Assembly (NCBI GenBank): GCA_903904335.1
Contig: CAIVCF010000147.1
Coordinates: forward strand, 1 to 53,976
Reading direction: 5' to 3'
DNA from: an uncultured Chitinophagaceae bacterium
GTDB taxonomy: Bacteria > Bacteroidota > Bacteroidia > Chitinophagales > Chitinophagaceae
DNA length: 53,976 nucleotides
The stretch's first letter is position 1, and every line of letters starts with the position of its first letter. Of the stretch, positions 24,267 through 34,522 are shown in pieces. The notes under the pieces are model-generated. The model made no database searches. It was not told where the DNA came from and saw nothing but the letters and a program-made list of their open reading frames with translations. The translations under genes and the position numbers were made by a program.

Positions 24267-25964
24267 TTATGAAGCTGCAGTCAAAGTGAAAGAAAAAATA
24301 CTGCCTTCATTCAAAATGCTTTTTACCTGAATGGTGCCGCCTTGTGCTTCAATGAATTCTTTGGAGATGGCAAGACCCAAACCTGTGCCGCTGCGTTCAT
24401 AAGTGCCGGGTACTTTAAAATAACGATCGAATAATTTGGGTAAATATTTTTCTTCAATCCCTTTCCCATGATCTGTAACAGCGAAAGAGATCTTATTTTC
24501 TTTTTGTGAAATGGAGATTTCAATAACTGAAGATTCCGGAGAATATTTTACTGCATTGGTGAGAAAATTGATCAATACCCACGAAGTTTTTTCTGCATCT
24601 GCATAAACGGATGATAATTTTGAAGGAAGGTTTTTTGTAATGCTGATATTTTTATGCTGTGCCTGAAAAAGAACCGCCTGTAATGCATTCTCCACAATAA
24701 CTTCAGGCTGCACAGGCTGCAGTTTTAATTGAATGTTTCCTGTTTCTGCCTGCGACATGTTCAATAATTCGCTGGTTATTTTCAATAGGCGGTCTGCATC
24801 GTCTGTAATACTTTTCAATAATTCTGTTTGATCAGCATTCAATGCACTCACTCTGTTGTCTGCCAATAATTGTGCACTCATTTTTATGGATGAAATGGGT
24901 GTTTTTAACTCGTGTGAAACAGTGGCGATGAAATTCGTTTTTGCTTCATTGAGTTCATGAAATGGTGTGATATTTCGCAATACGATCACTTGACCGATCA
25001 CTTCATTGTTATTGGTTACATCCAATATATCCTTATTAAAATAGCTTTCTTTATTATCGGCATAAATCTTCAGTTCATTTGCATTTCCGTTTTGTAACAA
25101 TGTCCGCATCAGGTCATTTTTCAAAGCAATATCTGCCGTGTATTTACCGATGATCTCGGCTTCTTTCAATCCCAATAATTTTTCAGCAACCGCATTCAGA
25201 AATAATATATGTTTCTTTTCATCTAATCCGATGATGCCGTCTTTCATTTGGTTGATGATGGTTTCTATCCTGCTCTTTTCAAATTTTATCTTTGCCAAAT
25301 TACTGTGTTCATACTCGTCTAATTTTTGTGCCATTACATTAAAGGCATTGGCAAGATCGCCGAACTCATCATCCTGATTCAAATAGATCCTTTTGTCGTA
25401 ACTTTTATCAGATATGGCGCTGATGCCTTCCGACAAAGCCCTGATAGGCGCTGCAATAACTTCAGGAATATTAAATACCAGTGTAAAAGCGATTAAGCTA
25501 AATACAGAAAAAATGATGGTTAGCCAAAATGTTGCATCACTTGCGGTCTTTTCTGCCACAACATTTTTGCGAAGAATGGCATTTTGATTCAAATCATTGA
25601 TCACCTGGATGGCTTGCCTTATTTGCACATAATTTTCATGATTGGAGGGATTCGATTTTATTTCATCAAAATTTTTCCGCACATCATTGGTTGCTTCTTT
25701 TTCCCCGATCTCGGTAATATTATTTTCCTGTTTTTTTAAATTATTTTCAAAGTCATCCAGTGCTTTTTTATTTTGAGGCAGCTCTTCCAAAGCCTTCAGC
25801 ATATTGTTATTGTATACCAATGTTTCATAATTATTCTTAATGATATTATTGGTATCGCTGCTTAATTTATTAATATAAAAAATACCAAGAATGCCAAATA
25901 ATAAAATCACAATAAAAAGGAAGCCTAGCCCAAAACCCAGTTTTGTCTTTAATCGCAGTTTCAT
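24267..25964 (-). CDS. Sensor histidine kinase linked to the kdp operon
   Basis: 565 residues. A membrane span near 9-30, a helical extracytoplasmic sensor of about 120 residues rich in Asn/Lys, a second span near 147-168, HAMP (IPEVIAAPIRALSEGISAIS), PAS (about 230-330, MKDGIIGLDEKKHILFLNA), HisKA with the phospho-acceptor in ATVSHELKTPISSIKMSA (near 350) and a HATPase_c domain (NAVKYSPESS as N box, VTDHGKGIEEKYLPKLFDRY, GTGLGLAISKEFIEAQGGTI). It begins 1 bp after the stop of kdpD, which lacks a kinase domain. The pair therefore looks like a KdpD divided over two chains, with a changed sensor region. Its partner is probably the NtrC-type regulator at the other end of the locus. Confidence 0.9.
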   Translation of the reverse strand: MKLRLKTKLGFGLGFLFIVILLFGILGIFYINKLSSDTNNIIKNNYETLVYNNNMLKALEELPQNKKALDDFENNLKKQENNITEIGEKEATNDVRKNFDEIKSNPSNHENYVQIRQAIQVINDLNQNAILRKNVVAEKTASDATFWLTIIFSVFSLIAFTLVFNIPEVIAAPIRALSEGISAISDKSYDKRIYLNQDDEFGDLANAFNVMAQKLDEYEHSNLAKIKFEKSRIETIINQMKDGIIGLDEKKHILFLNAVAEKLLGLKEAEIIGKYTADIALKNDLMRTLLQNGNANELKIYADNKESYFNKDILDVTNNNEVIGQVIVLRNITPFHELNEAKTNFIATVSHELKTPISSIKMSAQLLADNRVSALNADQTELLKSITDDADRLLKITSELLNMSQAETGNIQLKLQPVQPEVIVENALQAVLFQAQHKNISITKNLPSKLSSVYADAEKTSWVLINFLTNAVKYSPESSVIEISISQKENKISFAVTDHGKGIEEKYLPKLFDRYFKVPGTYERSGTGLGLAISKEFIEAQGGTIQVKSILNEGSIFSFTLTAAS

Positions 25965-25965
25965 A

Positions 25966-27093
25966 TTATGAAAGTATTACAATATCAATTTCCATTGCCG
26001 ACAATTTATTAAGCAACTGATTAAATACGGCTGTATTTAAAATTACATTAAATAGATTCAGATGTGGTTTGCCAATGCATATTGTGGTGATCTGTTTATT
26101 CTCTGTTACTTCTAAAATCCCTTTACCAATTTTGTTGCTTTTAACTTTAATTACTTCAGCGCCTAATTCTGTTGCGAGTTTAAAATTGTTGATGAGATGA
26201 CGTTGTGCTGCCAAACCAATTTTATCTCCATCTTCTTTTGGTGTTTGCACATACAACAAATACCATTTTGAATTATAATAAGAAGAAAGCCTGGCAGTTT
26301 TCCGGATGACTTTTTTTGCGATCTCGTGATTACTGCTGATGCAGGCTAAAAAGCGTTCCTGTTTTAAATGCGTGTTTCGAGGAAGCTCTGTCTGTATCTT
26401 TCTTTCCACCTGGGATGCCACTTCTTTCAAAGCCAATTCGCGTAATTGCAATATTCTTTCGCTTTGAAAAAAATTTTTTAATGCGATTTCGATTTTATCG
26501 GGCGAATAGATCTTACCTTCTTTTAATCTTGTTACCAATTCATCTGCAGTAAGATCAATATTCACTACTTCGTCTGCTTGTTTTAGAACAATGTCGGGAA
26601 TTCGCTCAGTTACATTTACATTGGTAATGACTTTTACTTCTTCATTCAAACTTTCGATATGCTGAATATTCACAGCACTGATCACATTGATGCCGGCATC
26701 TAAAATATCCATCACATCCTGCCAGCGTTTTTCATTTTTGCTGCCTTCAATATTGGTGTGTGCCAATTCATCAACAATCACCACTTCAGGATGTAAATTC
26801 AAAATCGCCTGCACATCCAATTCTTCTAATTCCTTTCCTTTATAAAATAATTTTCTTCGCGGAATAACAGGTAAACCTTCCAACAGGTCATGCGTTTCTT
26901 TTCTGCCATGCGTTTCAATATAACCGATCTTCACATCAACACCATTGCGCAACAATGCAGCAGCTTCCTGCAACATGCGATAAGTTTTGCCAACACCGGC
27001 ACTCATACCTATATAGATCTTAAACTTGCCCCGCCTGCTTTTGCGAATTAGGTTTAAAAAATGTTCAGCATTATTTTTTATTTCTTCTGCCAT
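25966..27093 (-). CDS. kdpD: KdpD sensor domain protein (KdpD domain plus Usp domain, no kinase)
   Basis: 375 residues against about 890 in E. coli KdpD. The KdpD domain fills residues 1-230: KIYIGMSAGVGKTYRMLQEA (Walker A GVGKT), GYIETHGRKETHDLLEGL and VVIVDELAHTNIEGSKNEKR (Walker B). A universal-stress-like domain follows (about 245-375: FLACISSNHEIAKKVIRKT, GKGILEVTENKQITTICIGK). There are no membrane spans, no HisKA and no ATPase domain; those are in the next gene, 1 bp downstream. The residues where Gram-positive KdpD binds c-di-AMP (FTAxY) read WYLLY here, so that control is unlikely. Probably a cytosolic K+/ATP-responsive partner of the kinase. Confidence 0.92.
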   Translation of the reverse strand: MAEEIKNNAEHFLNLIRKSRRGKFKIYIGMSAGVGKTYRMLQEAAALLRNGVDVKIGYIETHGRKETHDLLEGLPVIPRRKLFYKGKELEELDVQAILNLHPEVVIVDELAHTNIEGSKNEKRWQDVMDILDAGINVISAVNIQHIESLNEEVKVITNVNVTERIPDIVLKQADEVVNIDLTADELVTRLKEGKIYSPDKIEIALKNFFQSERILQLRELALKEVASQVERKIQTELPRNTHLKQERFLACISSNHEIAKKVIRKTARLSSYYNSKWYLLYVQTPKEDGDKIGLAAQRHLINNFKLATELGAEVIKVKSNKIGKGILEVTENKQITTICIGKPHLNLFNVILNTAVFNQLLNKLSAMEIDIVILS

Positions 27094-27153: not shown

Positions 27154-27194
27154 TTGTTGTGTCACTCGCTTCAAAATTCCGAACAATTCTCACC
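27154..27194 (+). repeat. Dispersed repeat between porin and kdpD
   Basis: Starts TTGTTGTGTCACTCGCTTCA and matches the metH-leader copy (14585-14625, minus strand) over about 41 bp. ATTGTT and AACAAT (near 27153-27158 and 27182-27187) form flanking arms. It is on the strand opposite to the kdp operon and runs up to the porin stop codon. Confidence 0.65.
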
Positions 27195-28249
27195 TAAAAC
27201 TTATAAACGGCAGCAAGAATAAAACTTGCATCAGTTTTAGTTCCGGAGCCACCACTTTTCACAAAAATAGTATTGCTTGCATCATCCAAGCGTAATTCCG
27301 GTATAATGGTCAAATTATTCAGATGAATATTTCCCGAAAGTGTTGTTTGAAATATTTTACTGTTTACGCCTGCAACATTTTTTGAATCATCAAAATATTC
27401 GCCGCGTAATGCGAACCCAAACTTACTTGTCGGATCATAATTGAAATAAATGGCATTGCTTGACCAGCTGTTATTTGTGCCATTTGTTTTTACCGTTTTA
27501 ATGGTACCGTCATAATTGATTACGAATGAATTGCTGACAGCAGCATTCAACACGAGATCAATTTGATTAAAATCATTCCCTCCTTGAAAATTCAAGAATA
27601 ATTTCAACTTATCGTTTTTGGTTCCGGTACTAAATTGTGCGATGATTACTTTATTTGTTTCTGTTGTTGTTGAATAATCAGTTGGATTTGCAATGCCGAT
27701 CATAAAAGCTGATTTCCCTCCCAATGAAATATCTGTCTTGATTCCGGTATGAAAGAAAGGCCCGTAAGAAAATCCATAACTCATACTGTAATTTCTATTT
27801 GCGTAAGCATCTAACATTTCATAACCAATATGCGTTGCCCATTTGCCTATTGTAAATTTTAAAACAGAAGATGGGGCATAACTGATGTATAATTGTTTGA
27901 TGGCCGCAAGTGTATTAAATCCATTGCCATTTCCTGTAGGATAGCCTGAGCCATCATGATAAGAAAATTCTTCAGCCCTTCTTCCAAACCCAAGATCTGC
28001 AGTAGCGGCGATCTTGCCAAATGAATGATCGACTCTTATAGAAGCCATTCCCAACTCAAATGAATTTTTAGAGTTTGTAAAGCTAGTTAAGTTATTAGTT
28101 GTTGTATTAAGGGCATTGTTAAGATCAGCTCTATAATAAACATCTGCCGAATAAGTAAATGTTGTTGTTGGCTTTTTCGTAGAATCAGTTTGGGCGAATA
28201 GTGTTACTGTTGTGATCAGACAGATACCTGCTGAAATTATTTTTTTCAT
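27194..28249 (-). CDS. Outer-membrane beta-barrel porin (BBP2/OmpL-like) in the kdp operon
   Basis: 351 residues from the ATG at 28249 (MKKIISAGICLITTVTLFAQT, a clean signal peptide). The frame can be extended to 28276 but that overlaps kdpC. After the leader come repeated amphipathic strands: FTYSADVYYRADLNNALN, SFELGMASIRVDHSFGKIAA, SVLKFTIGKWATHIGYEMLD, FALRGEYFDDSKN and a C-terminal FILAAVYKF that ends in Phe, as in outer-membrane barrels. The pattern fits the BBP2/OmpL-like porin group. It starts 4 bp after kdpC and is followed by kdpD, so it is embedded in the potassium operon. A role as K+ entry channel is inference from position only. Confidence 0.82.
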   Translation of the reverse strand: MKKIISAGICLITTVTLFAQTDSTKKPTTTFTYSADVYYRADLNNALNTTTNNLTSFTNSKNSFELGMASIRVDHSFGKIAATADLGFGRRAEEFSYHDGSGYPTGNGNGFNTLAAIKQLYISYAPSSVLKFTIGKWATHIGYEMLDAYANRNYSMSYGFSYGPFFHTGIKTDISLGGKSAFMIGIANPTDYSTTTETNKVIIAQFSTGTKNDKLKLFLNFQGGNDFNQIDLVLNAAVSNSFVINYDGTIKTVKTNGTNNSWSSNAIYFNYDPTSKFGFALRGEYFDDSKNVAGVNSKIFQTTLSGNIHLNNLTIIPELRLDDASNTIFVKSGGSGTKTDASFILAAVYKF

Positions 28250-28253
28250 TTTC

Positions 28254-28817
28254 CTATTTAAGTTTATCCAGTTCAATATTTAATTGTAACACATTTATTT
28301 TCTCTGTACCAAATAATCCAAGTAATGGTTTTTGAATTTGACCTTGTACCAACGCATTTATTTTTTCTTCAGAGATATTTCTTGTTTTTGCTATTCTGTT
28401 AATTTGAATTTTTGCAGCAGCAACAGAGATATCCGGATCTAATCCACTACCACTGTATGTTACCAAATCAGATGGTATATCTTCTTTTTTTACGGTTGGA
28501 TTATGTACTAAAAATGTATCGATCTTACTTTGAACATCTTTTAGATAATCAGGATTGCTGGTTCCTTTATTACTTCCTGATGATGCAGCTGCATTATAAC
28601 CTGCTGCAGAGGGACGGCTCCAGAAATATTTATCATCACTGAATTTTTGTCCTTCTAATTTATAACCAACAACTTTATTGTTCACGGAAATTGTTTCGCC
28701 TTCTCCTTTGTTTGGCGCAGCTTGCGCTACAGCCCAAACAAACAAAGTATAAATGCCCATAAAAAAGATGATGGTTACTGCTGTTAATTTTATAGCCGGA
28801 AGAATATGTTGTTTCAT
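28254..28817 (-). CDS. kdpC: Potassium-transporting ATPase subunit C
   Basis: 187 residues, the usual length. One N-terminal membrane span (AVTIIFFMGIYTLFVWAVAQ) and the KdpC periplasmic domain with GQKFSDDKYFWSRPSAAGYN, NPDYLKDVQSKIDTFL, IPSDLVTYSGSGLDPDISVA and INALVQGQIQKPLLGLFGTE, matching the family's conserved S-G-S-G-L-D-P block. It supports KdpB in ATP binding within the KdpFABC pump. Follows kdpB by 17 bp. Confidence 0.96.
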   Translation of the reverse strand: MKQHILPAIKLTAVTIIFFMGIYTLFVWAVAQAAPNKGEGETISVNNKVVGYKLEGQKFSDDKYFWSRPSAAGYNAAASSGSNKGTSNPDYLKDVQSKIDTFLVHNPTVKKEDIPSDLVTYSGSGLDPDISVAAAKIQINRIAKTRNISEEKINALVQGQIQKPLLGLFGTEKINVLQLNIELDKLK

Positions 28818-28834
28818 AAAAATTTATTTGAATG

Positions 28835-30871
28835 TTAAAACCAAATACTAACCAATAAATCAATTAATTTAATGCCGATAAACGGTACGATCACACCACC
28901 CAAGCCATAGATCAATAAATTTCTTCTCAACAAAGCACTTGCACCAATGGGTTTATACGCAACGCCTCTTAATGCCAACGGGATTAATAATGGAATGATG
29001 ATGGCATTAAAAATTACTGCAGATAAAATGGCACTTTCCGGACTGTGCAGTTTCATCACATTTAAACTTTGCAATCCTGGAATGGATGCAATGAATAATG
29101 CAGGAACGATCGCAAAATATTTTGCAACATCATTGGCAATAGAGAATGTTGTAAGTGTTCCTCTCGTCATTAATAATTGTTTTCCTATTTCAACGATCTC
29201 GATCAATTTAGTTGGATCGTTATCCAAGTCAACCATATTACCTGCTTCTTTTGCGGCTTGTGTTCCGCTGTTCATAGCCACACCAACATCCGCTTGCGCT
29301 AATGCAGGAGCATCGTTTGTGCCATCCCCCATCATCGCAACTAACTTACCGCCCTGTTGTTCCTTCTTGATATAATTCATTTTGTCTTCAGGCTTTGCTT
29401 CAGCAATAAAATCATCCACACCTGCTTTTTCAGCAATGAATTTTGCGGTCAATGGATTATCACCTGTTACCATTACTGTCTTTACACCCATTTTTCTTAA
29501 TCTTTCGAAACGCTCATGGATATTGGGTTTGATAATATCCTGCAATTCGATCACACCCAATATTTTTTCATTCTGACTCACTACCAATGGTGTTCCGCCG
29601 TTTGAAGAAATAAGTTTTACACGTTCAGTCGTTTCATCAGGAAAAATATTTCCGGATTTAGTGACGATATTTTTAATTGAATCAAAAGCACCTTTACGAA
29701 TACGCAGACCATCCAGATCAATTCCGCTGCTTCTTGTTTCTGCAGAAAACTTTATGAATATTACTTTATCTTTTTGCAGTGATGGTGCTTTGATATTTTT
29801 TTCGTGCGCTAATTCAATGATCGATTTTCCTTCGGGCGTTTCATCAGCCAGGGATGAGAGCACACATGCTTCTATGAAAATATTTTCATCAATATTATTT
29901 GCATTCCAAAAATGTGTTGCCTTCCTGTTCCCGATAGTGATGGTTCCTGTTTTGTCCAATAATAAAACATCCAGATCGCCTGCTGTTTCAACGGCTTTGC
30001 CGCTTTTTGTAATAACGTTTGCACGCAACGCTCTGTCCATTCCGGCAATACCGATAGCACTTAATAAACCACCAATGGTTGTTGGAATTAAACAAACAAA
30101 CAATGAAATAAATGCAGCTATAGTGATAGGGGTGTTGGCGTAATCACCAAATGGCTTAAGTGTTACACAAACAATAATAAATACCAAAGTAAAACCTGCC
30201 AATAAAATTGTCAATGCAATTTCGTTCGGCGTTTTTTGACGAGAAGCACCTTCTACCAATGCGATCATTTTATCTAAAAAACTTTCGCCGGGCTCTGTGG
30301 TAACACGAACGGTTATTTTATCGGACAATACTTTTGTTCCGCCTGTAACGCTTGATTTATCGCCTCCTGATTCGCGAATAACTGGTGCAGATTCGCCTGT
30401 AATAGCAGATTCATCAATGGTTGCAAGACCTTCAATGATCTCGCCATCCATCGGGATCATGTCACCAGCTTCGCAGAAAAACAAATCACCTTTCTTTAAA
30501 AGAGAACTGTTTACGATTTCAATTTTGTTATTCACTATTTTTTTTGCAGGCGTTTCTTCTCTTGTTTTTCTTAAACTATCTGCTTGTGCTTTACCTCTTG
30601 CTTCTGCAATGGCTTCTGCAAAATTTGCAAACAATAAAGTGATAAGTAAAACAAGAAACACAATTAAATTATAAATGAAACTTCCTTGTGTTTTATCGCC
30701 AGTTACAATCCAGATGCATACAACGAACATTACAATGGTTCCAATCTCTACGGTAAACATTACCGGATTACGGAACATAATTCTGGGATCGAGTTTAATG
30801 AACGATTGTTTGAATGCTTCTTTCACCAATGCAGGTTCAAATAATTTATTCGATGATTTTTTCTTTGCCAT
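28835..30871 (-). CDS. kdpB: Potassium-transporting P-type ATPase subunit B
   Basis: 678 residues, normal length. P-type ATPase motifs: [11 protein letters not shown] (actuator TGES, with the regulatory Ser of E. coli KdpB), [14 protein letters not shown] (phosphorylated Asp), [20 protein letters not shown], and [20 protein letters not shown] (hinge). The seven membrane segments of KdpB are visible, including [18 protein letters not shown] in the ion path region. It hydrolyses ATP to drive K+ uptake through KdpA. Spacers to kdpA (42 bp) and kdpC (17 bp) indicate one operon. Confidence 0.97.
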
Positions 30872-30913: not shown

Positions 30914-32620
30914 TTATTTTGAAAAGTATTCTGATATCGGTCCCAATGCCAGCGCAGGAAAGAAGCTGAGTGCTGCAATAATGGCGATCACTGCAAAAAC
31001 CATGATGCCAAATGTGGTGGTATCTGTTTTTAGTGTACCTGCACTTTCAGGCACATATTTCTTTTTTGCCAAGATGCCTGCAATTGCAACGGGTCCAATG
31101 ATGGGAAGAAAACGCGACAACAACATTACAATGCCGCATGTGATATTCCAGAAAATGGATACCGGATAGCTATCGCCTAAACCTTCGAAACCACTACCAT
31201 TATTGGCTGATGAGGATGTGTATTCGTATAGCATTTCACTAAATCCATGGTAACCCGGATTGTTTAACCATGCTGCATAAGTTTTTGGATCATGTGCAAA
31301 TAAATATGACGACAATGCAGTGAAACTTAAGATCAAAAACGGATGTAACAATGCAATGATAGTGGCGATCTTCATTTCTTTCGCTTCGATTTTTTTACCG
31401 AGAAACTCCGGAGTTCTTCCTACCATTAGACCACTAATAAAAACCGCGATGATAATGAAGATGTAAAAATTTAAAAAGCCCACACCAACACCGCCGAAAA
31501 ATGAGTTGACCATCATGCCCAACATAGCAAACATGCCGCTTAATGGTGTAAGTGAATCGTGCATGGCATTTACACTTCCGTTGGATGTAACAGTTGTAGT
31601 GATGACCCAATGTGCTGATGCGGCAGGGCCAAAACGAACTTCTTTTCCTTCCATACTTCCCAATGGTTGTGCAACATGCATGGCTGCAATATTGCTGCTG
31701 CCTTTCATTTCATAATAAACAGTTGGAACTAATAGCAATAAATACCCGAGCATCATTACACCAAAAACCATCCAGGCTATTTTTTTTCTTTTCAATACAA
31801 AACCCAAAGCAAATACCATTGCAATTGGAATGAGAATAATAGAAATTACTTCAACCGCATTGGTAAAATAATTTGGATTTTCTAATGGATGAGCAGAATT
31901 AGCCCCGAAGAAACCTCCGCCATTTGTTCCCAATTGTTTGATGGCCACCATCGCAGCAGCGGGACCTCTTGAAACATTCACTGTATCGCCCTGAACAGAA
32001 ATGAATTGATCTTTTCCTTTAAAGGTCATCGGGGTTCCGTTGAATACAAGAAGTATTGCAACGATGATAGATAATGGAAGTAATATCCTTGTGCATGACT
32101 TTACAAAATAATTATAAAAGTTTCCCAACTTATCAGTTGTTCTTTCTTTCATTGCATTAAATACAACAGCACAAACTGCCATACCTGCACCGGCACTGAT
32201 GAATTGAAACAACATCAATACCAATTGTCCCAAATATGAAACACCGCTTTCTCCTGAATAGTGTTGCAAATTGGTGTTGGATATAAAACTGATGGAAGTA
32301 TTAAATGCTGTATCGGCGGTCATGGATGGATTGCCATCAGGATTCAATGGCAGCCAACTCATATTCATTAACACCAACATAGAAAAAAGAAACCAGATTA
32401 AGTTGATGGTTAATAAAGCAACCAGATGTTGCTTCCAGTTCATTTCTCTATCGGCCTTAATACCACTGAGTTTGTAGAACAGATTATCTATCGGATCGAA
32501 AATAAAATCCAATTTAGTTTTATCGCCATTATATAATTTTCCGATATAACGTCCTAACGGAATTGCGAATAAAACCGTTGCGAAGAATATAGTAACAATA
32601 CCTAAAATTTCTGTGTTCAT
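30914..32620 (-). CDS. kdpA: Potassium-transporting ATPase subunit A
   Basis: 568 residues, near E. coli KdpA (557). It keeps the four selectivity-loop regions of the KtrB/TrkH-like fold: ISFISNTNLQHYSGESGVSY, IKQLGTNGGGFFGANSAHP, a GMFAMLGMMVNSFFGGVGVG segment and a GSGFEGLGDSYP segment. KdpA is the K+-selective channel part of the pump in the inner membrane. Its start is 75 bp after the kdpF stop; this spacer holds a 7-bp tandem repeat. Confidence 0.97.
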   Translation of the reverse strand: MNTEILGIVTIFFATVLFAIPLGRYIGKLYNGDKTKLDFIFDPIDNLFYKLSGIKADREMNWKQHLVALLTINLIWFLFSMLVLMNMSWLPLNPDGNPSMTADTAFNTSISFISNTNLQHYSGESGVSYLGQLVLMLFQFISAGAGMAVCAVVFNAMKERTTDKLGNFYNYFVKSCTRILLPLSIIVAILLVFNGTPMTFKGKDQFISVQGDTVNVSRGPAAAMVAIKQLGTNGGGFFGANSAHPLENPNYFTNAVEVISIILIPIAMVFALGFVLKRKKIAWMVFGVMMLGYLLLLVPTVYYEMKGSSNIAAMHVAQPLGSMEGKEVRFGPAASAHWVITTTVTSNGSVNAMHDSLTPLSGMFAMLGMMVNSFFGGVGVGFLNFYIFIIIAVFISGLMVGRTPEFLGKKIEAKEMKIATIIALLHPFLILSFTALSSYLFAHDPKTYAAWLNNPGYHGFSEMLYEYTSSSANNGSGFEGLGDSYPVSIFWNITCGIVMLLSRFLPIIGPVAIAGILAKKKYVPESAGTLKTDTTTFGIMVFAVIAIIAALSFFPALALGPISEYFSK

Positions 32621-32694: not shown

Positions 32695-32772
32695 CTAAAA
32701 TTTTTCCGGTTTAATTAAAACATAACATAAGTAACCGAAAACAAGGATCGAGATAATGAATAGTAATAACAT
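32695..32772 (-). CDS. kdpF: Potassium-transporting ATPase subunit F
   Basis: 25 residues from the ATG at 32772 to TAG at 32695. The product MLLLFIISILVFGYLCYVLI then KPEKF has the single membrane helix and the x-L-x-K-P-E-x-F end shared by KdpF proteins (29 residues in E. coli), which bind as a lipid-like stabilising peptide between KdpA and KdpB. Position directly before kdpA fits. It starts 5 bp after the stop of the 31-residue membrane peptide gene. Confidence 0.92.
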   Translation of the reverse strand: MLLLFIISILVFGYLCYVLIKPEKF

Positions 32773-32777
32773 AGCGT

Positions 32778-32873
32778 TTAAATTTTATCGAAGAAATCAA
32801 TGGATTTAAAAAAAATGACGAAGCCGATTAAAGCCGCTGCAATAAGAATGACTGTGAGCCACATAATGATCAT
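32778..32873 (-). CDS. 31-residue single-span membrane peptide, kdp operon
   Basis: ATG at 32873, TAA at 32778: MIIMWLTVILIAAALIGFVI, then FFKSIDFFDKI. One strongly hydrophobic helix covers residues 2-22 with a short charged, aromatic tail. Its start overlaps the stop of the upstream 47-residue gene (ATGA) and its own stop is 5 bp before kdpF, so translation of all three is probably linked. It is like KdpF in size and layout but lacks the KPE end. I do not recognise the family; a second small pump subunit or a regulator peptide are both possible. Confidence 0.72.
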   Translation of the reverse strand: MIIMWLTVILIAAALIGFVIFFKSIDFFDKI

Positions 32874-33013
32874 TTTAAATGAAATAATATTTTGAATTTT
32901 AGATAAACGATATGCAGAGCACTCCATACAATCAGCCATACAAATAATATCCCAATCACTTTAGTGGTATCTATATTTTTTTTATGCATAGATGGATGCT
33001 GTTGCACAGACAT
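32870..33013 (-). CDS. 47-residue single-span membrane protein, first gene of the kdp operon
   Basis: ATG at 33013, TGA at 32870, with a second in-frame ATG at 32989 that would give 39 residues. The product has a polar N-terminus (MSVQQHPSMHKKNIDTTK), one membrane helix (VIGILFVWLIVWSALHIVYL) and a basic tail (KFKILFHLK). An in-frame stop lies 33 bp upstream of the first ATG. The ATGA overlap with the next small gene is the main reason to think that it is real. No family recognised. A sigma-54-like element covers the bases just before 33013, which, if used, would favour the start at 32989. Confidence 0.66.
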   Translation of the reverse strand: MSVQQHPSMHKKNIDTTKVIGILFVWLIVWSALHIVYLKFKILFHLK

Positions 33014-33032: not shown

Positions 33033-33125
33033 CGTTTCTTATTGGCTTAAAAAATTTGATAGACATTAATACAGCAAAGGGTTTTAACAAGAATGAAAAT
33101 CCCGGACGCCATTATAATAAATAAA

Positions 33126-33148
33126 AACCCTTCCACTTTGGAAGGGTT
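33126..33148 (-). terminator. Terminator between the NtrC-type regulator and the kdp operon
   Basis: Perfect 9-bp stem AACCCTTCC (33126-33134) with GGAAGGGTT (33140-33148), loop of 5, followed on the minus strand by TTTTTATTTATT. It lies 37 bp after the regulator stop, so regulator and kdp genes are probably separate transcripts. Confidence 0.85.
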
Positions 33149-33184
33149 CGTTTTCAAAATGACATGGTCAAGTAAATGAAAATA

Positions 33185-34522
33185 TTACATTAGATGAAAC
33201 TCTTCGATCTTTCGGTATAAAGTGGTGAGCCCAATGTTGAGTAACCTTGCAGCTTCGGTTTTGTTTCCTTTGGTGTGATTGAGGACACGTTGAATATGCA
33301 ATTTTTCTACACTGCTTAGATCAAAAGCAGAAAGCGTTCCGGGTTTTAATACGGGTGTTTGCATTTCAACCGGTAAACAATTGAAACCAAGTTGAGCTGT
33401 TTCAGTAAGAATGACAGATCTTTCAATCACATTTTTTAGTTCACGTATATTTCCTTTCCATTGATGATCGGTTAAATGATCTTTAAAATCGGTTGTCATG
33501 CTGTCAATCGTCTTATTCATCTTTTGTGCAAAGAGTTTGATAAAATGATCAGCTAAAACAGGAATATCTGTTTTTCTTTCCCGCAATGGCGGCAATGAAA
33601 TGGCAAAAACATTCAAACGATAAAAAAGATCTTCTCGAAATTTTCCTTCTTTCACATCGTCCTGCAGATCTCTATTGGTGGCAGCAATGATGCGCACATT
33701 TACTTTGGTTGATTTGGTATCACCCACTTTAATAAATTCATTCGTTTCTAAAACGCGCAATAATTTTGATTGAAGATCGATATGCATTTCACCGATCTCA
33801 TCTAAAAACAAAGTTCCGTTATTCGCTTCTTCGATCAATCCCTTTTTGTCTTTGGTAGCTCCTGTAAAAGCACCGGCTTTGTGACCAAATATCTCACTCT
33901 CCAAAATTTCTTTGCTGAATGCGCTGCAATTCAATGCCAGAAAGGATTTTCCATTTCTTTTACTGCCGGAATGAATAGCTTGCGCAAATACTTCCTTTCC
34001 CGTTCCCGTTTCTCCTAATAATAAAACAGTGGCATCAGTGGGTGCAACTTTTTGTGCTAAATTGATGGCATCTTTTATGACCGGAGATTCGCCCAGAATA
34101 CTTTCAAAGCCATAACGCTTGCCAACCTGTTTTTCTAAATGTTCAATCCTTTTTTGCAGTTGTACTTTTTCTAATGCACGATTTAATAATGGAATGATCT
34201 TGTCATTATCATCACCTTTGGTGATATAATCAAATGCACCATTTTTCATCGCCTGAACGCCGTCGGCAATATTACCGTAAGCCGTTAGCAGGATAATTTC
34301 AATAGCAGGATATTTTGATTTTGTTTCTTTCGCAAATTCCACACCATTGCCATCCGGAAGTTTTACATCACATAAAATAACATCAATATTTTCCTTCTCC
34401 AATGATTTTATGGCATTTTTCAAATTATCGGCTTCTAATACAGCATAGCCTTCCAGCCTGATGATACGGGAAAGGAGGTTGCGTAATTTTTCTTCATCAT
34501 CAATAATAAGAACGGTATTCAC
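33185..34522 (-). CDS. NtrC-type sigma-54-dependent response regulator, probable kdp regulator
   Basis: 445 residues. Receiver domain 1-120 (LIIDDEEKLRNLL, phospho-acceptor D52 in ILCDVKLPDG, LLTAYG, Lys in DYITKGDD). AAA+ domain about 140-380 with GETGTGKEVFAQAIH (Walker A), HKAGAFTGATKDKKG (the GAFTGA loop that contacts sigma-54), NGTLFLDEIGEM (Walker B) and a sensor region NVRIIAATNRDLQ. C-terminal Fis-type helix-turn-helix (HIQRVLNHTKGNKTEAARLL). It activates sigma-54 promoters when phosphorylated. Classical kdp loci use the OmpR-type KdpE instead; none is in this window. It is upstream of the kdp genes, behind a terminator, with the kinase at the operon's far end. Confidence 0.9.
   Translation of the reverse strand: MNTVLIIDDEEKLRNLLSRIIRLEGYAVLEADNLKNAIKSLEKENIDVILCDVKLPDGNGVEFAKETKSKYPAIEIILLTAYGNIADGVQAMKNGAFDYITKGDDNDKIIPLLNRALEKVQLQKRIEHLEKQVGKRYGFESILGESPVIKDAINLAQKVAPTDATVLLLGETGTGKEVFAQAIHSGSKRNGKSFLALNCSAFSKEILESEIFGHKAGAFTGATKDKKGLIEEANNGTLFLDEIGEMHIDLQSKLLRVLETNEFIKVGDTKSTKVNVRIIAATNRDLQDDVKEGKFREDLFYRLNVFAISLPPLRERKTDIPVLADHFIKLFAQKMNKTIDSMTTDFKDHLTDHQWKGNIRELKNVIERSVILTETAQLGFNCLPVEMQTPVLKPGTLSAFDLSSVEKLHIQRVLNHTKGNKTEAARLLNIGLTTLYRKIEEFHLM

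Follow-up and report, generated by a model that had tools for sequence, protein, structure and literature searches.

KdpFABC is the model chimera of a channel and a P-type ATPase, and the structures known for it come from work on the E. coli pump. One of its components, KdpF (PF09604, TIGR02115), is a small one-span peptide with basic residues near its C-terminus, encoded ahead of kdpA at the operon head. CydX and AcrZ, proteins of fewer than 50 residues with one span, likewise act on large membrane complexes. Here we describe a DNA stretch of 53,976 nucleotides (hereafter the window), a Bacteroidota contig whose minus-strand kdp operon carries two additional one-span microprotein genes, ORF1 and ORF2, before kdpF. 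ORF2, which very probably encodes a real protein as judged from its conservation, shares with KdpF its size, single span, C-terminal basic residues and place at the operon head ahead of kdpA; to CydX and AcrZ, which belong to different complexes, it is likened by description only.

Additional small genes at kdp heads have been named before. The Alicyclobacillus operon kdpZFABCN reportedly begins with a kdpZ gene for a "small hydrophobic peptide" placed before a kdpF-type gene. PMC5401905 cites a kdpZYABCXDE transcript of Clostridium acetobutylicum, in which extra genes likewise precede kdpA. KdpZ/OrfZ is likened to ORF2 by position only, as a further gene at the kdp head, and its hosts are Bacillota, unlike the window; a small gene immediately before a kdpF-type gene is found both in the window and in a Listeria innocua plasmid. 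PMC5401905 also reports for M. smegmatis a transcript, present at low K+ only, that starts 120 nt before kdpF and is termed a long 5' untranslated region (UTR); those 120 nt would have room for an ORF2, as at the four actinobacterial loci read here. Our search of the literature on small open reading frames (ORFs) at kdpF or KdpFABC, with most subscription journals outside it, found no description of ORF2, and a term search of the main text of the S. meliloti small-proteome paper did not find "kdp". The claim of the original prediction that no such small proteins had been described for KdpFABC is qualified by the kdpZ gene named ahead of kdpA in C. acetobutylicum, as cited in PMC5401905. Among database entries, the RefSeq protein WP_338861741.1 (Mycetohabitans, 34 aa) resembles ORF2 in having one span, in lying directly upstream of kdpF and in its CDKL motif, and differs in its longer tail, eight residues extending beyond that motif; its name, "potassium ABC transporter ATPase", is misleading, and no family model matches it above cut-off.

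ORF2 at the kdp heads of Bacteroidota

In the window, ORF2 lies at 32778..32864 (minus strand) and, read from the start conserved among congeners, encodes 28 aa with one membrane span and the C-terminal residues FFDKI. It is followed by kdpF (32695..32772, minus strand), whose 25-aa product matches PF09604 with 31.3 bits (cut-off 21.2) and TIGR02115 with 31.1 (cut-off 26.85). The original prediction had described a 47-residue ORF1 read from its first ATG (33013..32870) and a 31-residue second frame (32873..32778), overlapping by ATGA at 32870-32873, with the second stop 5 nt before kdpF (32772..32695). Both minus-strand frames, the overlap and the spacing are present as described; taken as a mechanical ORF, the second frame is longer, with 53 aa from 32939. 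The frames proved real, and it is their starts that shift. In an alignment of the window with the kdp loci of three congeners, ORF1 starts at an internal ATG giving 39 aa (32989..32870) in both congeners having ORF1, and ORF2 at the ATG at 32864, which shortens the peptide from 31 to 28 aa and leaves 5 nt after the ORF1 stop; the ATG within ATGA is unconserved among the congeners.

Conservation was assessed in up to 4 kb upstream of kdpA at Bacteroidota loci, the best 80 of 544 by KdpA, a choice that favours near relatives. By pattern scan, 71 of the 80 have ORF2 and 78 have kdpF; one locus (L034) was added by eye, and a frame in another (L051) was left out of the ORF2 set as spurious. The profile built from the 71 loci and the window matched 72 of the 80 upstream of kdpA at E<=0.05, L034 being the sole matched locus outside the build, with zero matches elsewhere in those loci. 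The peptide has about 27 residues and one span, with the consensus MLTxILIxAGLxxFALFFKxIDFFEKI; F24 is present in all 72 sequences, L6, F14 and F17 in 70, K26 in 67 and I27 in 66. Nucleotide entropy at the three codon positions is 0.94, 0.55 and 1.51. A pooled pN/pS of 0.36, compared with 0.21 for kdpF, indicates purifying selection on the amino-acid sequence, as do the comparisons of the window with its three congeners (dN 0.08-0.10, dS 0.55-1.12). In the two shifted forward frames pN/pS was 1.0 and 1.4, and stops interrupt each of them in 63 of the 72 sequences; in the three reverse frames it was 0.99, 0.52 and 1.40, and 57, 24 and 69 of the 72 sequences carry stops. Well above chance, a one-span ORF of 22-45 codons ending no more than ~110 nt before kdpF occurred in 69 of 78 Bacteroidota loci (window excluded), whereas dinucleotide shuffles predict 4.2 such loci and the antisense strand gave 3.

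ORF2 gave no match to the KdpF models at E<=10, whereas the adjacent 25-aa frame does match them. Neither ORF1, ORF2 nor eight outside or divergent members matched any Pfam or NCBIfam model above cut-off, a few weak sub-threshold matches aside, and no relative was found by sequence in the PDB at E<=10. Fusion of ORF2 into a longer protein was also considered: none of the five non-C-terminal matches above 8 bits was convincing, three being long-tailed ORF2-like peptides (L116, L118, L119) and two short ORFs.

The profile was then applied to 395 Bacteroidota genomes, with at most 21 first-look candidates scored per genome; KdpA (PF03814) is present in 112 of them. Linkage was judged from 78 of the 117 KdpA matches and the best 64 ORF2 matches, which reach down to E 0.031; the KdpA matches outside these 78 include most of a family designated f18, and by eye none of the 64 ORF2 matches shares a contig with them. 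At E<=1e-3 there were 44 ORF2 matches, 43 of which sit 114-918 nt upstream of the kdpA match on the same strand; the 44th covers only 14 residues and comes from a genome that has no KdpA. Of the 20 weaker matches, four (E 0.003-0.031) likewise lie at kdpA and 16 are away from it. Among 71 loci, 62 have the ORF2 stop within 30 nt of the kdpF start (in 8 the two genes overlap by 4 nt) and 68 within 103 nt. In the other three the two genes are 382-470 nt apart and a DUF7674 (PF24722) sequence stands between them (L073:3275-3661, L076:3389-3769 and L079:3533-3784); since ORF2 is intact there, it would act as a protein. Linkage to kdpA is thus near-exclusive, with no need for strict adjacency to kdpF. 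As a side observation, the DUF7674 gene recurs among the small ORFs at kdp heads: in one further locus it lies upstream of ORF2 (L080:3556-3834), and the L079 frame has a shorter N-terminus.

ORF2-like peptides in other phyla

Twenty-five non-Bacteroidota kdp loci were picked by hand for breadth, 23 from plasmids and two from records filed as phage. By eye, 17 of them encode an ORF2-like peptide just upstream of kdpF. The carriers belong to Pseudomonadota, Actinomycetota, Deinococcota and Bacillota: Rhizobium, Sinorhizobium, Azospirillum, Acidiphilium, Acetobacter, Methylocystis, Sphingomonas, Novosphingobium, Paracoccus, Caballeronia, Mycetohabitans, Nonomuraea, Streptomyces, Arthrobacter, Rhodococcus, Deinococcus radiodurans and Listeria innocua, the plasmid of the last encoding a 30-residue one-span frame directly before its kdpF-type gene. 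No such peptide was seen in seven of the loci, those of E. coli, Providencia, Comamonas, an Acinetobacter contig, a Staphylococcus contig, Lactiplantibacillus and Halobacterium; the remaining locus, of Deinococcus D7000, encodes a similar-looking peptide behind kdpF. A [DE]-[RK]-[LI] end is common among the outside tails, from which Rhodococcus, Paracoccus, Acetobacter, Sphingomonas and others deviate. The slot test, applied to the 22 outside loci with a located kdpF, gave a one-span ORF in 16, against 0.4 expected from shuffles and none on the antisense strand; L. innocua fell narrowly outside its limits.

When outside peptides were searched by tblastn against 7.3 Gb of plasmids (E<=10), the Azospirillum peptide was found in 122 plasmid records, by genus Alphaproteobacteria and one Caballeronia, and lay 119-240 nt upstream of kdpA in the 26 records compared, namely those of 60 listed records whose kdpA position was also listed. 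The Mycetohabitans peptide matched 28 plasmid records (Mycetohabitans, Caballeronia, Rhizobium) and lay 92-240 nt upstream in the 8 of these 28 with a listed kdpA, and the Nonomuraea peptide matched one other record (Shinella), just before kdpA. The Rhizobium and Shinella matches to these two queries are weak (E 3-10) and were counted because of their position. The actinobacterial and betaproteobacterial queries thus retrieved few records, every checked one placing ORF2 just upstream of kdpA; among viral contigs, the Nonomuraea query found no KdpA. In the plasmid annotations, whose gene tables are incomplete, ORF2 is unlisted, labelled as hypothetical, given a misleading name or truncated by an incorrect kdpF start. 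In one Shinella plasmid (L191:2250-2378) the annotated kdpF begins inside ORF2, and its N-terminus is probably overextended. The two records filed as Acinetobacter and Staphylococcus phages (L168, L169) carry kdp genes and look like bacterial contigs, the former with ordinary bacterial metabolic genes too.

Common descent of the Bacteroidota and outside peptides appears likely from profile comparison. Aligned by hhalign, the two ORF2 sets gave P 0.003 over 27 gapless columns, compared with 0.095-0.32 for three other small families. Searched against 31,078 ORFs at E<=0.05, the Bacteroidota profile recruited among the outside loci (L146-L170) solely the Acidiphilium ORF2; the outside profile recruited ORF2-like peptides of five loci from the same phylum as the window (L115, L116, L118, L119 and L120), and several near-threshold matches of either profile were ORF2 again. 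Several results count against homology. Only 9 of 17 outside peptides scored better than their own shuffles (p<0.05) with the Bacteroidota profile, and in the reverse test 6 of 12 passed, the window's own peptide failing (p=0.71). This shuffle test is unspecific, because controls also pass: forward and reverse, respectively, 2/15 and 1/15 of outside KdpF, 8/30 and 2/30 of Bacteroidota KdpF, 0/16 and 0/16 of the ORF1 family and 4/12 and 5/12 of a further small family. Column conservation in the gapless register correlates at r=0.05, and a shift of 3 gives 0.68 (nine shifts tried). The 17 outside peptides show no conserved helix face (p=0.53), which either speaks against deep homology or reflects too few data. 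Because of the low correlation and the missing face, the wider family may be partly convergent.

A possible fifth Kdp subunit and its alternatives

AlphaFold2, run without an alignment, models ORF2 as one helix (pLDDT 95.9). In the Bacteroidota set, conservation has its peak at 100 degrees per residue for positions 4-24 (p=0.003) and at 94 degrees for positions 4-21 alone (p=0.013); the conserved face is L6-G10-F14-F17-I21-F24. KdpF in the same test gave p=0.12 with a peak at 106. Such one-faced conservation suggests a helix packed on a fixed partner, and a Kdp membrane subunit would be the likeliest one, because kdpF and kdpA are the most constant neighbours of ORF2. Positive residues mark the cytoplasmic side of membrane proteins, and their place at the C-terminus suggests that ORF2 lies N-out, C-in.

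The explanation that we favour, and hold to be somewhat probable, is that ORF2 is a KdpF-like fifth subunit of the Kdp pump. It would be translated as a single-span inner-membrane microprotein of about 27 residues, made with the pump from the operon head; its face of L6, G10, F14, F17, I21 and F24 would pack on a membrane helix of KdpA, KdpB or KdpC, its charged [DE]-[KR]-[IL] tail would probably be cytoplasmic, and it would stabilise or tune the complex. This last step is proposed from the role reported for KdpF (Gassel 1999). The comparisons show that ORF2 is conserved as a protein, is almost exclusively linked to kdpA, has one conserved face in Bacteroidota and does not depend on strict adjacency to kdpF; that it is translated, inserted into the membrane, oriented as proposed, stably bound to the pump and able to affect it is inferred. 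The original suggestion that the tiny genes encode further small subunits or regulators of the pump is partly supported and is still the best reading, with binding to the pump as a proposal.

Several observations weigh against a role as a Kdp subunit. ORF2 was absent or unseen in eight of the 80 Bacteroidota loci: five gave none by pattern scan and eye (L029, L031, L043, L068, L082), two look broken (L051, L052), and the available sequence of L044 covers only 80 nt upstream. At least 65 of the 112 KdpA-bearing genomes have no match to the profile, some of them holding another peptide in the ORF2 slot. We read 19 further kdpA heads, mostly from unmatched genomes, with three from genomes with weak matches and one a second kdpA of an ORF2-bearing genome: in 12 the slot holds a one-span ORF of 26-33 codons, which in family f18 lacks a DKI-type tail, and in 7 it does not, a repeated locus (L187, a repeat of L178) having been dropped. 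At another 17 kdpA loci from the phylum, the slot encodes an ORF2-like peptide, 27-47 residues long, in 7 cases and none in 10. E. coli, from which the known KdpFABC structures come, has no ORF2. Finally, unlike the neighbouring KdpF, ORF2 matches no KdpF profile; profile-profile comparison likewise showed no similarity to KdpF (hhalign probability 1.6%; global mode P 0.23), and the conserved residues of ORF2, FFKxIxFF[DE]KI, differ from the YVLxKPEKF of KdpF. Separately, some genomes (G249, G043, G168) have two or more KdpA matches each, and the second KdpA of G249 has no clear ORF2-like peptide ahead of it.

Among the alternatives, a membrane microprotein regulator that acts off the assembled pump, on a KdpD-type kinase, on a protease or by inhibition of KdpB, survives best and is nevertheless unlikely. 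The signalling proteins of the window, a split KdpD and a sigma54-type response regulator, are unlike those of E. coli and would suit such a role; on the other hand, ORF2-like peptides keep their place by kdpF-kdpA amid quite different neighbours in the plasmid loci, and a single conserved face suits constant packing, neither counterpoint being decisive.

It is rather improbable that ORF2 works mainly in cis, as a leader or coupling ORF whose translation opens or couples the kdpF start. The short spacing to kdpF in most Bacteroidota loci would fit, as would the 4-nt overlap of the ORF2-like frame with kdpF in all four actinobacterial loci read, yet amino-acid selection extends over the whole span, in Deinococcus D7000 the similar-looking peptide comes after kdpF, and no Rfam model matches above its gathering score. 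A leader peptide stands directly before the gene that it regulates, as ORF2 does in 68 of the 71 loci but not in the three in which DUF7674 sequence intervenes, and because of these a leader acting in cis only is unlikely. Two candidate regulatory features were considered and rejected: a sigma54 promoter upstream of ORF2 (TGG-N9-[TC]GC in 5 of 71 loci, the window lacking it, versus 6 for the antisense strand), and an RNA element, the four Rfam matches at 33105-33241, around the upstream terminator, all scoring well below gathering.

More doubtful still is that ORF2 helps KdpF or KdpA to assemble or insert and is no longer part of the pump once it is complete; it is encoded ahead of kdpF and often translationally adjacent to it, as would suit a helper, but several loci have kdpF and kdpA without ORF2. 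That the frames are chance ORFs in a non-coding leader can be practically dismissed for ORF2, short as they are and overlapping other mechanical frames, given the slot-test excess, the low pN/pS and 43 of 44 genome-wide matches lying at kdpA; for ORF1 the evidence against chance is weaker.

The kdp operon of the window and the meaning of a possible fifth peptide

From its head, the minus-strand gene order is sigma54-type response regulator, terminator-like hairpin, ORF1, ORF2, kdpF, kdpA, kdpB and kdpC, followed by genes for a BBP2 porin-like protein, a protein with a KdpD sensor domain and a separately encoded histidine kinase. The response regulator (33185-34522) has a sigma54-activation domain. 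Between it and ORF1 we noted by eye an intrinsic-terminator-like hairpin with a T run (33120..33148, minus strand), and a similar one follows the response-regulator gene in four of four aligned loci of the genus, which suggests that ORF1-ORF2-kdpF begin a new transcription unit. The kdpA gene (30914..32620, minus strand) encodes 568 aa matching PF03814 with E 1.5e-222, and its nearest named relatives are labelled Chitinophagaceae. The ORF at 28835..30871 (minus strand; 678 aa), known from its translation, is presumably kdpB, and that at 28254..28817 (minus strand; 187 aa), likewise known from its translation, is presumably kdpC. The BBP2 porin-like gene (27194-28276) lies inside the operon, and the split KdpD (24267-27093) consists of two proteins, one with the KdpD sensor domain and a Usp match below threshold, the other a HAMP-PAS histidine kinase.

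ORF1 (32870..32989, minus strand), a one-span frame of ~39 aa by comparison, ends in KFKILFHLK and belongs to a patchy kdp-linked family with the consensus tail LKFKILFH; AlphaFold2 without alignment gave a single helix (pLDDT 82.1). Of the 80 loci, 17 give a match to its profile upstream of kdpA (15 used in the build), and in L038, L056 and L070 the frame comes after kdpF and before kdpA. It is missing in one of the three aligned congeners, and purifying selection is weaker (pN/pS 0.21-0.48 over the last 30 codons of three sequences). The 395 genomes gave only three strong ORF1 matches, each of them at kdp, and seven weak ones (E 0.003-0.009) that show no kdp link. A strong ORF1-like match (L037:1425-1541, E 1e-10) lies ~2.5 kb upstream of kdpA, off the kdp head. 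ORF1 is best explained as a distinct membrane microprotein that some kdp operons carry as an option. The expectation that both frames would recur at the same place in related operons was borne out for ORF2, in place and in sequence across many Bacteroidota and with a probable relative in four other phyla; ORF1 is real but recurs patchily. A further one-span family (PFHLL..Y....GI.Y) occurs at the kdp head in 17 of the 80 loci, 12 of them used in the build; in L034 both optional families, ORF2 and kdpF stand in a row, the further-family frame at L034:3473-3580.

The reach of ORF2 is wider than the original prediction guessed, and its role as a subunit is the best reading of these comparisons rather than a result. 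Probably, ORF2 adds a membrane piece to the Kdp pump in many bacteria, not including E. coli. It is conceivable, at slightly less than an even chance, that many bacteria have a native five-subunit Kdp whose ~27-residue fifth member was missed as E. coli lacks ORF2, and that ORF1 and the further family give some Bacteroidota pumps three or four one-span peptides. For annotators, ORF2 offers a family to model, the gene being often absent from annotations. If it is true that a conserved extra peptide goes with Kdp across five phyla, the complex of E. coli may be atypical, and ORF2 would provide a natural variant for testing how the KdpA-KdpB interface is sealed and how the pump is regulated.
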